From a bacterium (GTDB taxonomy: Bacteria > Vulcanimicrobiota > Xenobia > Xenobiales > JADMJV01): a DNA stretch of 37,531 bases. Each line of letters starts with the position of its first letter. Position 1 is the stretch's first letter. The stretch is taken from assembly GCA_030149525.1 (NCBI GenBank), contig JASBRJ010000047.1:1-37531 (forward strand), read 5' to 3'. Made by a program: the position numbers and the translations under genes. The notes beneath the pieces were generated by a model, which was given only the letters and a program-made list of their open reading frames with translations, was not told where the DNA came from and did not search any database. Positions 3,361 through 21,273 of this stretch are shown in pieces.

Positions 3361-3720
3361 TTAGTAACGCCTGTTCTGCATCATTCTCCTGTTACGGTTT
3401 CGCATCTCCAGATAATCTTCTTGATAAAGGTTATGATCGTAGAGAGATTCATAGTAGTCGGCCCCACGGTCACCGGTCCAGATGTAAGGATCGTCGTCGG
3501 TGATTCGGCCATAGTCTTCCAGGTAATAGGAACGCTCTTCATCGAGAGCGGCGGTGTCATGCTCTTGAATATGGTAGTGGTTGGTGTCGTAGATTCCGTC
3601 GCCGTCCGTATCGGTCATATGTCGCTCGATGGTGTACTTCCCGTCGGAATAGTAACCGGTTTGAGCGGAGGCAACTCCTGCCAGCAGAAGGGTTCCAAGC
3701 GCGATATATTTGATATTCAT
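3361..3720 (-). CDS. Small acidic exported protein with a DxDxDG motif
   Basis: A 119-residue protein. The ATG at 3720 is preceded by AGGAG at about 8 bases, which favours it over the ATG at 3735 that overlaps this ribosome site. A signal peptide ends near GVASAQ at about residue 20. The mature protein is rich in Asp, Tyr and Arg. It has one DTDGDGIYD segment, the pattern of a calcium-binding EF-hand or thrombospondin-type 3 loop, at about residue 40. The tail is Arg/Asn/Met-rich (RNRNRRMMQNRRY). It is probably periplasmic or surface-exposed and may bind calcium. No family recognised. Confidence 0.72.
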   Translation of the reverse strand: MNIKYIALGTLLLAGVASAQTGYYSDGKYTIERHMTDTDGDGIYDTNHYHIQEHDTAALDEERSYYLEDYGRITDDDPYIWTGDRGADYYESLYDHNLYQEDYLEMRNRNRRMMQNRRY

Positions 3721-3832
3721 AAGTAGTCTCCTCATTCTTCAATTGGATCCTCATTATGTGTCGCCTGGTCTTTTGGCCGAAGCCACACAAGCATAATACC
3801 CCCCCACCATATGTTCCATAGAACTCGTTGGT

Positions 3833-4339
3833 TTATTTTCGGTCTTTCAAGACCCGAATCTCTTTGATTCCGGTGGGCTGTTGTACGCCGAGAACGGTGG
3901 AAAAATTGGTTCTGAAGAAAAGCAACTGGACCGGTCGGTCGTCTCCCGTTTGAAAGAGCCGCCAGCGACCCTGGTGCTTTTGCAGGTTGAACTTCATACT
4001 TCCATAGCGAGCCGTGGGGACGACACCCTCGAGGTAGCTCAGGCTGGCCTCCCCACCAGTCTCGGGGTCAAAGTTGAGAATGTCCATCTTGAGGACAGCC
4101 TTGCCCTTGTACTCTCGAAGGTTCACGCCTTTGTTGAGATCCTCCAAACGGTAGACACCCATGACAAGATCGTAGGCTCGGTGAACCAGTTCGTAAGGAG
4201 TACCGTTTTCGTCTAGCTCCAAATACAATCGGTCATCTCGTTCATTGAAGTCGTTGCGGGTTTTCACCAGAAGAACTTCTTTCGCGACGCAACTGGCCGT
4301 CGTGAGAAAGATCAATGTCAACAGGAAGAGGCGCTGCAT
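3833..4339 (-). CDS. Exported hypothetical protein, possible lipoprotein
   Basis: A 168-residue protein. I use the ATG at 4339, which puts a hydrophobic signal at the very N-terminus; an upstream GTG at 4354 adds five residues. The signal ends LTTASC, an imperfect lipobox, so lipidation at this Cys is possible but not certain. The rest is a soluble beta-rich domain with no transmembrane segments and no recognised motif. It contains GGEASLSYLEGVVP and KFNLQKHQGRWRLFQTGD. It lies downstream of the oxidase block on the same strand, about 85 bases after the ctaF stop, but it has no obvious link to respiration. Confidence 0.7.
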   Translation of the reverse strand: MQRLFLLTLIFLTTASCVAKEVLLVKTRNDFNERDDRLYLELDENGTPYELVHRAYDLVMGVYRLEDLNKGVNLREYKGKAVLKMDILNFDPETGGEASLSYLEGVVPTARYGSMKFNLQKHQGRWRLFQTGDDRPVQLLFFRTNFSTVLGVQQPTGIKEIRVLKDRK

Positions 4340-18871: not shown

Positions 18872-19347
18872 CTAAGGCCCGCCGACGATCTGTCCGAGGA
18901 GTTCGATAATCCGGTTCTTATACTGAGCGTATTTTAACAGGTCGATTTCGGTCTCTTTTGAGTTGGCGAAATTCTCGTAGTTCCACTCCAGTGTTAGCGG
19001 CATGTACCAAAAATGGGCTACCAACTTTCTCGGGAATACCTCGAGGTTTTGTGCAACTGCTCGAGGAGAGATATTACGCGTTCTGCACCGGCTTCGTCGA
19101 AGTCCAGGGCCTGTTGACATTCAGCATTCCGTCGTCACACTTGCCCATTTCCAGCCTCTGGAAGCGAATTTTTTCTCACGTACACCCGGTACTAGTCGAA
19201 AAAATCCGCCTCCATAGGCAGAAAATGTACTTCCTGTGTCTCGAAATGCTGAATATCAACAGGCCCTAGGCCGCGAAGCTTCGAGAAGAATCCAGACTCG
19301 ACTTCCCACTCTTTGTCCAGGGCGGTTTCTATTTCTTCGAGCGACAT
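18872..19347 (-). pseudogene. Small gene disrupted by palindromic insertion and frameshift
   Basis: From ATG 19347 the frame reads MSLEEIETALDKEWEVESGF, then stops at 19192-19194 inside the 162-bp palindrome at 19106-19267. If that palindrome is removed, the frame continues without a break as KLRGL-DFDEAGAERVISLLEQLHKTS. A single-base loss near 19045-19050 then shifts it. The other frame carries on with VFPRKLVAHFWYMPLTLEW to a normal stop at 18872. The rebuilt protein is about 104 residues, soluble and mostly helical. It starts 18 bases after the HNH gene stop, so it was probably co-transcribed with it. Family not recognised; an immunity or partner role is only a guess. Confidence 0.7.
19106..19267. 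mobile_element. 162-bp palindromic MITE-like insertion
   Basis: The outer ends are inverted copies of AGGGCCTGTTGAYATTCAGC. The two arms, about 19106-19175 and 19197-19267, pair over roughly 70 bases with about 70% identity by hand count: a near-perfect outer 25 bases, a divergent stretch, then a matching inner part (GGCGGATTTTTTC against GAAGCGAATTTTTTC). A spacer of about 20 bases separates them. The length is an exact multiple of three. It holds no transposase. Arms read in the same phase give similar peptides (GPVDIQH...HFLPMEADFF and GPVDIQH...HFQPLEANFF). No clear target duplication is seen. Confidence 0.72.
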
Positions 19348-19365: not shown

Positions 19366-21060
19366 TTAGGCCGACACTGCTGACCAGTCGATGCCGCACC
19401 TGGCTTTATAGGAATTGTGCTCCCCACCGGTCCAGCCTATTTCATAATCGAGCCACTCCGCAATATGCAGATCGACCTGGCGGTCTAAGCGGCTCCCGAA
19501 CTGGTCAAAGAAGAGCAGTCTGCCGTCGGATTGACGTTCGATTTTGAGGAGCCCGTCGTGAGTGTTTTTGTGGCAGGCGGAGCACAGGCCTATGAGGTTT
19601 CCGGGCTCGGTTTTTCCGCCTTTGGAGAAGCTTTCCAGGTGATGGATGTGGAGCCAAATTCGATTCGGGCATCCCGGGGTGCTACAGCACCAACAGTCCC
19701 GGCGCAAGATCTCTCTTGACTGGGCTTTGGTGGTGCTTCGGGCGTTGATGGTGAAGCGGACTCTGGTGCTTGCCCACGGGTTCTTGATAGGGTCAAGCTG
19801 AACCCGGTGCGGGTCCAGTTGGGATATCCATTCTTCGTTGAGAGAGGCAACACCCAGTGCATCGGCCAGTAGTTCGGCGGCGCGTTCGGAATCGACCCGG
19901 TGCGGGTTCGTTGGAGAGATGATCTTTCCATCGCCGCGCTCACCCAAGGCCTCGGTCAGGAACGCGGCAGTATCTTTAGACCCGACCCGGTGCGGGTTCA
20001 CCCGAGAGATGAATTCTTCATTGATTGCGGTGGTACCGTGGGCGTTGCTAAGCATTGGGGCAGCGCGTTCGGTTTGAACCCGGTGCGGGTCCATCCCAGT
20101 GACAAGCTTTTCTTCGAACGAATCAGCGCCGAGGACTCCGGCCAGAACATTGGCAGTATGTTCGGGCCCGACCCGGTGCGGGCCCATTTGAGCGATGAGC
20201 CCTTCATTGAACTCACTCCCCAAGGCCTGGATCAAAAGTTCATCAGCATGCCCCGACTGAACCCGGCGCGGGTCCAACTCAAAGCACTCAGGAACATCAT
20301 CATCAGCCTCAATAAGCCCCATCTCCACAGCGGTTTCTCTGGCTTCGGCCACCACGGGAATGAGTCGAGCCCGCTCCGCCTGGAGATCCTTATCGGCCTC
20401 CTCAAGGACCTTGGCCTTCGACTCTTCGTCGAGCGGATGATTGGCTTGATACGAAGTGAGAAGTTCTTTCATGAACTCAGCATGAGTCATGGCCTTATCT
20501 TGTTTCAGACAGAACGCTCGCTTAGCGGCATCGTACAGAACACTCGTTTCCGGGTCGAAGGGACATTGAAAGTAGGACCGATAGGCGGTCTCTTCCAGGT
20601 CCACTTCGCCCGGCACGGCTCCAGGCGGAGTCTTACTCACCAACGCCTGAATCTGCTTATCGTTGTAACGTCCGGCAAGTTGCAACCAATATTCCTCGGT
20701 TTCCTCAACGGCAACCCGAACAATCTCCCTCAGCTTCCCCCAGGCGATTCGACCCTCTTCTGCAGCCAACGACAACTCAGGCAAGAGAATCAGGGCTCGA
20801 GCGACCCGCTTAAACTCGTTGGCCTCCCGCTTCTCCATGCCCAGCTTCGCCACAGCATAATGAGTAGAACACGAACAGCCATGCTTTTTGAAGTCGCCGG
20901 TCTCCTGAATCGCCAACAAGCAACGACCCAGCGTAAGCCGGCTGGAAGTTAGCGTTCCAACGGCTCGCAAAGCCAGGTTGTGACGCACTCGCTCACCCAT
21001 GGAAATCAGCTCGGCAAGTCGGAATCTCTTGGGGTCTATGGATAAGGGTCTCAGGCTCAT
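19366..21060 (-). CDS. HNH endonuclease-like protein with five tandem PHRV repeats
   Basis: A 564-residue protein. ATG at 21060 is preferred (GAGGAG about 7 bases upstream) over the ATG at 21108. Residues about 10-200 are a helical domain resembling the DUF222/13E12 region that precedes HNH in many bacterial proteins (SSRLTLGRCLLAIQETG, EGRIAWGKLREIVRVA). Residues about 262-420 are five tandem 30-31-residue repeats, each opening with P[HR]RV. The HNH nuclease core is at about 471-503: HIHHLESFSKGG, then GNLIGLCSACHKNTHDG, preceded by a Cys-rich CWCCSTPGC that could bind zinc. Catalytic His residues are present. Possible roles are DNA cleavage in defence, mobility or competition. No phage or transposon genes surround it. 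Confidence 0.88.
   Translation of the reverse strand: MSLRPLSIDPKRFRLAELISMGERVRHNLALRAVGTLTSSRLTLGRCLLAIQETGDFKKHGCSCSTHYAVAKLGMEKREANEFKRVARALILLPELSLAAEEGRIAWGKLREIVRVAVEETEEYWLQLAGRYNDKQIQALVSKTPPGAVPGEVDLEETAYRSYFQCPFDPETSVLYDAAKRAFCLKQDKAMTHAEFMKELLTSYQANHPLDEESKAKVLEEADKDLQAERARLIPVVAEARETAVEMGLIEADDDVPECFELDPRRVQSGHADELLIQALGSEFNEGLIAQMGPHRVGPEHTANVLAGVLGADSFEEKLVTGMDPHRVQTERAAPMLSNAHGTTAINEEFISRVNPHRVGSKDTAAFLTEALGERGDGKIISPTNPHRVDSERAAELLADALGVASLNEEWISQLDPHRVQLDPIKNPWASTRVRFTINARSTTKAQSREILRRDCWCCSTPGCPNRIWLHIHHLESFSKGGKTEPGNLIGLCSACHKNTHDGLLKIERQSDGRLLFFDQFGSRLDRQVDLHIAEWLDYEIGWTGGEHNSYKARCGIDWSAVSA
19802..20273 (-). repeat. In-frame tandem repeats, period 90-93 bp, inside the HNH gene
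   Basis: The plus-strand word ACCCGGTGCGGGT or a one-base variant recurs at 19802, 19895, 19985, 20078, 20171 and 20261, at spacings of 93, 90, 93, 93 and 90. These encode the PHRV (once PRRV) motif and bound five units of 30-31 residues. Between the words the sequence varies, but it keeps a pattern of xxxxAAxLLAxALG followed by NEExIS. All spacings are multiples of three. Confidence 0.9.
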
Positions 21061-21273
21061 ATTCGGCTCCTCAAAAGAAGGTTTTGTACAGCACAAGAAC
21101 GGCTTCATAAAGCCATTTTTGTCAACTGTAGTACCTTCGACGGAGCCCTCCTCAGACCTCGCAAAGTCAGGGTGGATTTGGGGCTTTTTCGAGAGAAATG
21201 AGGATCAAATTCCCCCGGATTGATTGGGAGAGATTTGTGGAGGGGAAGGTGTTACTTAGTGGCTGAGAGTCAC

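Follow-up and report, generated by a model that had tools for sequence, protein, structure and literature searches.

The window, by which we mean the whole 37,531-nucleotide stretch analysed, carries on its reverse strand an HNH nuclease gene in which a helical N-terminal domain and the nuclease core are separated by an array of repeats. The features of this locus are as follows.

21061..21197, (-): upstream region common to the copies of the gene, with a TTGACA box and the inverted repeat GGCTTTATGAAGCC
19366..21060, (-): HNH nuclease gene, 564 aa from MSLRPLS; stop codon 19366-19368
20611..21036, (-): N-terminal helical domain, residues 9-150, DUF222-like, with a predicted ParB/Noc DNA-binding-domain fold
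20323..20553, (-): second helical region, residues 170-246, helices in the AF2 model at medium confidence
20185..20274, (-): unit A, 30 aa
20092..20184, (-): unit B, 31 aa
19999..20091, (-): unit C, 31 aa
19909..19998, (-): unit D, 30 aa
19816..19908, (-): unit E, 31 aa, alone in having clear protein constraint (dN/dS 0.34)
20261..20273: palindrome 1, ACCCG-CGC-CGGGT (coding strand)
20171..20183: palindrome 2, GCCCG-CAC-CGGGT, one outer base changed
20078..20090: palindrome 3, ACCCG-CAC-CGGGT
19985..19997: palindrome 4, ACCCG-CAC-CGGGT
19895..19907: palindrome 5, ACCCG-CAC-CGGGT
19802..19814: palindrome 6, ACCCG-CAC-CGGGT, closing the array
19471..19764, (-): HNH nuclease domain, with zinc-type cysteines (CxxxxxC/CxxC) and an intact HH..N..H pattern (PF01844)

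The reading frame begins at the second ATG, preceded by a GGAG Shine-Dalgarno sequence; a longer start at 21108 is possible. The upstream region shows 81-87% identity among close copies, compared with ~68% at synonymous sites, and is probably a promoter or regulatory element. The HNH core named in a preliminary description of the locus is borne out by Pfam (PF01844, E 1.4e-6, above the cut-off), where it is the sole recognised domain of the protein. Its profile matches include the HNH domains of IscB and McrA; an RNA-guided IscB, with a RuvC domain around the HNH and a guide RNA, was rejected, the match to NF040563 being confined to the HNH part (32.6 bits vs a cut-off of 175). The same description called the N-terminal domain DUF222-like. 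Judged by profile matches this label is probably correct, but the relationship is distant: PF02720 is matched by the N-terminal domains of 8 of 15 relatives (best E 2.4e-6), whereas the window domain alone reaches only E 0.05, and the curated cut-off was exceeded by none in the scan of its own genome.

Five units of 30-31 residues with a P[HR]RV start had also been described between the two domains, and all were located in the reading frame. Six motifs bound them (DPRRV, GPHRV, DPHRV, NPHRV, NPHRV and DPHRV, starting at residues 263, 293, 324, 355, 385 and 416), giving unit lengths of 30, 31, 31, 30 and 31 residues or, along the + strand, motif spacings of 93, 90, 93, 93 and 90 nt. Tandem Repeats Finder reported nothing on the array because the spacers are too diverged.

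The gene belongs to a dispersed family, with ~20 copies or fragments in the genome (8.27 Mb, 398 contigs). Close copies share 83-97% amino-acid identity per matched piece, many of them ending at contig ends, and divergent paralogues are also present. The copies are alike from ~137 bp upstream of the start codon through the stop codon, with flanks otherwise unrelated save for one pair with a common 155 bp downstream of the stop; as regards transposon or homing features, common flanks are almost absent, and no genome was close enough for an empty-site comparison. The two domains are under strong constraint (dN/dS 0.10 and 0.07), and the array is far less constrained, at 0.57 in the bulk alignment. 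Copies differ by whole units, numbering from 3 to 5: typed by eye, the window reads ABCDE, L034 ACDE, L033 and L035 ADE, L036 ABE, L039 ABC, and L031 AB followed by two copies of a new unit and E. In addition, the N-terminal and C-terminal parts give trees that are mutually incompatible by the AU test (p = 0.0014 and 0.0015); therefore, the copies have probably exchanged segments. Assembly chimeras possibly explain some of this conflict, but are less likely given 10-15% divergence. The suggestion of recombination within the array, made in the preliminary description, agrees with both patterns.

What is constant in this array is nucleotide sequence. PHRV is almost always spelled within the palindrome ACCCG-NNN-CGGGT. 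Among unit pairs with spacer identity below 60%, to which the comparison was restricted, synonymous codon identity is 0.966 inside the palindrome vs 0.42 at the next codon (Val, its third base outside the palindrome), 0.45 in the spacers and ~0.34 expected. In the motifs, dS (0.077) falls below dN (0.140) as well as below the spacer dS (0.363); a dS below dN is the opposite of what protein selection gives. Among 38 motifs, which are not independent counts since the units share ancestry, codon choice hardly varies or does not vary at all, although these genes commonly use synonyms for each amino acid (Pro CCG 0.35, Arg CGG 0.25); synonymous codon shuffles within genes yielded a mean of 3.5 sites and a maximum of 8, vs 36 actual sites. 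The genome contains 32 instances of the exact 13-mer ACCCGCACCGGGT, far more than chance would give; 30 belong to the HNH family or its relics, and 36 of the 48 sites of the looser ACCCGNNNCGGGT fall in family reading frames, which make up 0.26% of the genome. In the divergent paralogues L037 and L038 most of the spacer sequence is different, and several units have longer spacers, yet the palindrome is mostly spelled the same way, with another loop codon (GAC, GGC); the palindrome is lost in a few units (L032, L039). The palindrome is therefore conserved at the nucleotide level beyond the protein code, and the constant motif and variable middle noted earlier correspond to near-invariant palindrome codons and near-neutral spacers.

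The consensus over 44 sites is TGRACCCG-NNC-CGGGTY(CA), with a dyad-symmetric in-frame form TGRACCC-GNNCC-GGGTYCA; we write the candidate recognition site of the window array as TGGACCCGCACCGGGTTCA or TGRACCCGNNCCGGGTYCA. Position -8 carries G in 42 of the 44 sites, whether the codon specifies Met, Leu, Val or Thr. At +/-7 a purine is kept in each half, read on its own strand, while cross-pairing of the halves lies below the independence expectation; this fits a dimer on double-stranded DNA, not a hairpin. An array of RNA hairpins was considered, as RNA of the array is folded more stably than its shuffled versions (z = -4.0), and rejected: just outside the 13-bp core, the first position pairs less often than expected, so that a double-stranded dyad fits better. 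Hairpin flipping, which the CAC loop read as GTG in L033 and L035 might suggest, was likewise set aside, for the relatives include GAC and GTC, which provide a stepwise route. Rfam returned nothing meaningful. Palindromes with arms of 6 or more are not enriched overall in family genes; hence, the case rests on the synonymous constraint of one motif and not on palindrome number.

Could the units instead be a functional protein repeat, either an array that binds DNA or a partner or a spacer that sets the distance between domains? Both roles had been proposed from the sequence, and we give this reading a very slim chance. The units do hold to 30-31 residues, and unit E, which has homologues in L037 and L038, is constrained. 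On the other hand, dN/dS by unit type A-E is 0.75, 0.96, 1.48, 1.08 and 0.34, that is, the spacers of units A-D evolve nearly neutrally; unit number varies, and protein selection leaves the frozen synonymous sites unexplained. AlphaFold2 left the repeat region unfolded, with a pLDDT of ~30. A protein solenoid or TALE-like array, for which no fold is predicted, was rejected on these grounds. As for an inter-domain ruler, most relatives have no array, sister-genus proteins lack linker repeats altogether, and it is the nucleotide palindrome that is held constant instead. Of the binding array proposed earlier, the array survives as our leading idea in the form of DNA sites, and protein repeats as binders of DNA or a partner are not favoured. 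The array looks like DNA sites set into a tolerant protein linker.

An explanation without any binder is that the palindrome is a recombination or duplication point: a disordered linker would grow and shrink as its identical motifs of 13 bp exchange with one another, with concerted evolution keeping the motif uniform. The whole-unit differences and conflicting trees speak for it, as does the motif being the sole stretch common to all units, and so does an out-of-frame relic downstream of the L036 copy (L036:5694-6186), pieced together from the final unit, the tail of the N-terminal part and the opening units. Yet identity stops sharply at the palindrome edges (the next codon falls to 0.42), unlike conversion tracts, divergent paralogues with unrelated spacers retain the spelling, and a related site in the sister genus lies outside any array. 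We therefore regard this explanation as unlikely. More doubtful still is a selfish palindromic coding element inserting in-frame, as in Rickettsia or in PARCELs, which are tandem coding repeats with dyad symmetry and variable residues (PMC2996958). The window has a palindrome inside a tandem coding repeat, variable residues around it and a tolerant linker, and dyad symmetry was indeed found in its repeat-coding DNA; but the palindrome spans 13-19 bp, not tens to hundreds, and other genes of the genome are without it except by chance. PARCELs, moreover, encode a 25-residue domain (DUF285/TIGR02167) in membrane proteins, with longer palindromes, whereas the window units have 30-31 residues and no DUF285/TIGR02167 match was found in the protein.

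A candidate binder is offered by the protein itself. Modelled alone, the N-terminal helical domain reaches a pLDDT of 87.2 in AlphaFold2, and in a Foldseek search against the PDB ranks 1-23 are all ParB, Spo0J or Noc, including the DNA-bound 6y93 and 6s6h; match probabilities are mostly 0.85-1.0, but with E 0.1-0.9 and TM ~0.5. A profile built from 26 ParB HTH domains of this phylum aligned in a ParB-consistent register over 53 columns, though only with P = 0.047 and an HH probability of 1%. Neither Pfam nor the PDB gave a match to an N-terminal CTPase (ParB/Srx) domain in the window protein. We accordingly describe it as ParB-like in predicted fold rather than as a ParB.

Relatives in other genomes help to place the site. 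At E 1e-20, the close family was recovered from 8 of 148 other genomes of the phylum; no PHRV array was seen in these 148, so the fragmented genome of the window is its one known carrier. Intact proteins of the sister genus (G001-G005) have ~320-378 aa and no linker array, but the genomes of this genus contain a palindrome, CGMCCCG-NN-CGGGKCG, close to that of the window (for example, CGCCCCGCACGGGGCG). In 7 of nine inspected copies (drawn from G001, G003, G004 and G005), this palindrome or a near form is present in the stretch that codes for the HNH domain or no more than 310 bp upstream of the gene. Of the 32 full sites in the same four genomes, 8 lie in a family gene or gene fragment or no further than 150 bp upstream of one, and G004 has 12 of its 15 sites within 16 kb of a family gene; the copy number and distance limit of this association were chosen post hoc, and its probabilities are accordingly rough. 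Many sites lie away from the gene, and a reversed-pattern control gave 14 full sites vs 32; thus, part of the remaining sites is background or another repeat. The common sister-genus centre, CCCGCAC-GGG, is one base from the CCCGCACCGGG of the window, and the centre between GACCC-type half-sites differs by genus (5 bp in the window vs 4 bp). In a third lineage (G010, G012), CGACCCACGTGGGTCG occurs within an unrelated linker repeat, RPTWV, in another reading frame, again with a GACCC half-site and with the uncommon Arg codon CGA.

The near confinement of sites to the family, the ParB-like predicted fold and the related palindromes in sister genomes together lead us to a self-addressing reading, bearing in mind that several of the association tests were framed after seeing the data. 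We put at even chances that the in-frame array is a set of sites recognised by the ParB-like domain of the same protein; it is from these observations, and from a fold known by prediction, that we infer self-binding. Dimers of the protein would bind palindromes in the family's own genes through this domain, as ParB does on parS, and binding would concentrate the protein on its own gene copies. The outcome might be a shut-down of family-copy expression (autoregulation), or the HNH domain might nick family copies and so bring about exchange between dispersed copies. The recognition site would accompany the protein family and, in the window genus, would have settled in its own linker and multiplied there. 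A fuller version is more speculative, and we hold it only tentatively: the dispersed family would address itself, a centromere-like in-frame array collecting the protein and the nuclease driving copy exchange, with a site older than its present position, as its occurrence upstream or in the HNH-coding part in the sister genus and within unrelated linker repeats in two lineages may suggest. Alternatively, the site would be genuine and its binder some other protein of the host, such as a regulator or nucleoid protein. Since the link between the HNH protein and the site is one that we infer, such a binder has some room; but a general regulator would have other targets, whereas the sites of the window genome are almost confined to the family, whose own domain, as modelled, resembles a palindrome-binding fold. 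We consider it distinctly unlikely.

Binding of the array by the protein's own domain would have parallels in known systems. One is ParB/Noc with their parS (TGTTTCAC-GTGAAACA) and NBS (TATTTCCC-GGGAAATA) sites (PMC7383237), similar in the predicted DNA-binding fold and, in the sister lineage, in a palindrome of two 8-bp halves. Differences lie in the site sequence and, in the window, the centre length, as well as in the protein, which carries an HNH domain instead of a recognised CTPase or dimerisation domain. In the F plasmid, ParB-bound parS-F (sopC) has twelve 43-bp repeats with ten 16-bp inverted repeats (PMC6238139); the logic of tandem repeats each with an inverted repeat is the same, but parS-F is non-coding and the window array is in-frame inside a gene. 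A ParB-CTPase fused to HNH (PMC12704722) likewise joins a ParB-related domain and an HNH domain in bacteria, though with a CTPase fold where the window protein has only the helical DNA-binding part. By architecture, the window protein resembles the DUF222-HNH proteins of REP13E12 in Mycobacterium tuberculosis, noted as a repetitive class (PMC10589994), with a DUF222-like N-terminal domain, a C-terminal HNH and dispersed multiple copies, differing in its only distant PF02720 match. No description of a linker palindrome array in this family was found in the literature searched. DUF222-HNH genes are repeated in many genomes, including Mycobacterium REP13E12, and the literature searched gave no function for them; a ParB-like domain together with its accompanying candidate site would allow a cheap and direct test of what they bind. 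If true, self-binding would make the array a clear case of selected DNA sites inside coding sequence, mimicking a protein repeat.

Beyond the phylum search, phage records gave no relative and plasmids one HNH-only match; PADLOC gave weak HNH matches only, and PHROGs gave HNH matches and, for the N-domain, a single weak hit of unknown function (phrog_17202, E 2e-4). In the same phylum, G033 (L069-L074) has at least 39 matches, from 178 first-look candidates, to HNH proteins of ~650-880 aa with a duplicated helical domain. Within the window genome, a related HNH protein (L054:7406-9397) has a Gly/Ser/Pro-rich repeat linker between its domains, with the palindrome absent. A divergent family copy on L038 is flanked on both sides (1-850 and 3480-3920) by 63-bp direct repeats and a 174-bp repeat. 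Finally, a 162-bp imperfect palindrome (19106-19267, 73% self-complementary, MITE-like) lies ~100 bp beyond the stop of the HNH gene; its best relative in the genome (93%, L034) is likewise just beyond the stop of a family copy, so that this palindromic repeat adjoins two copies, and some eight other matches in the genome are weaker or partial.
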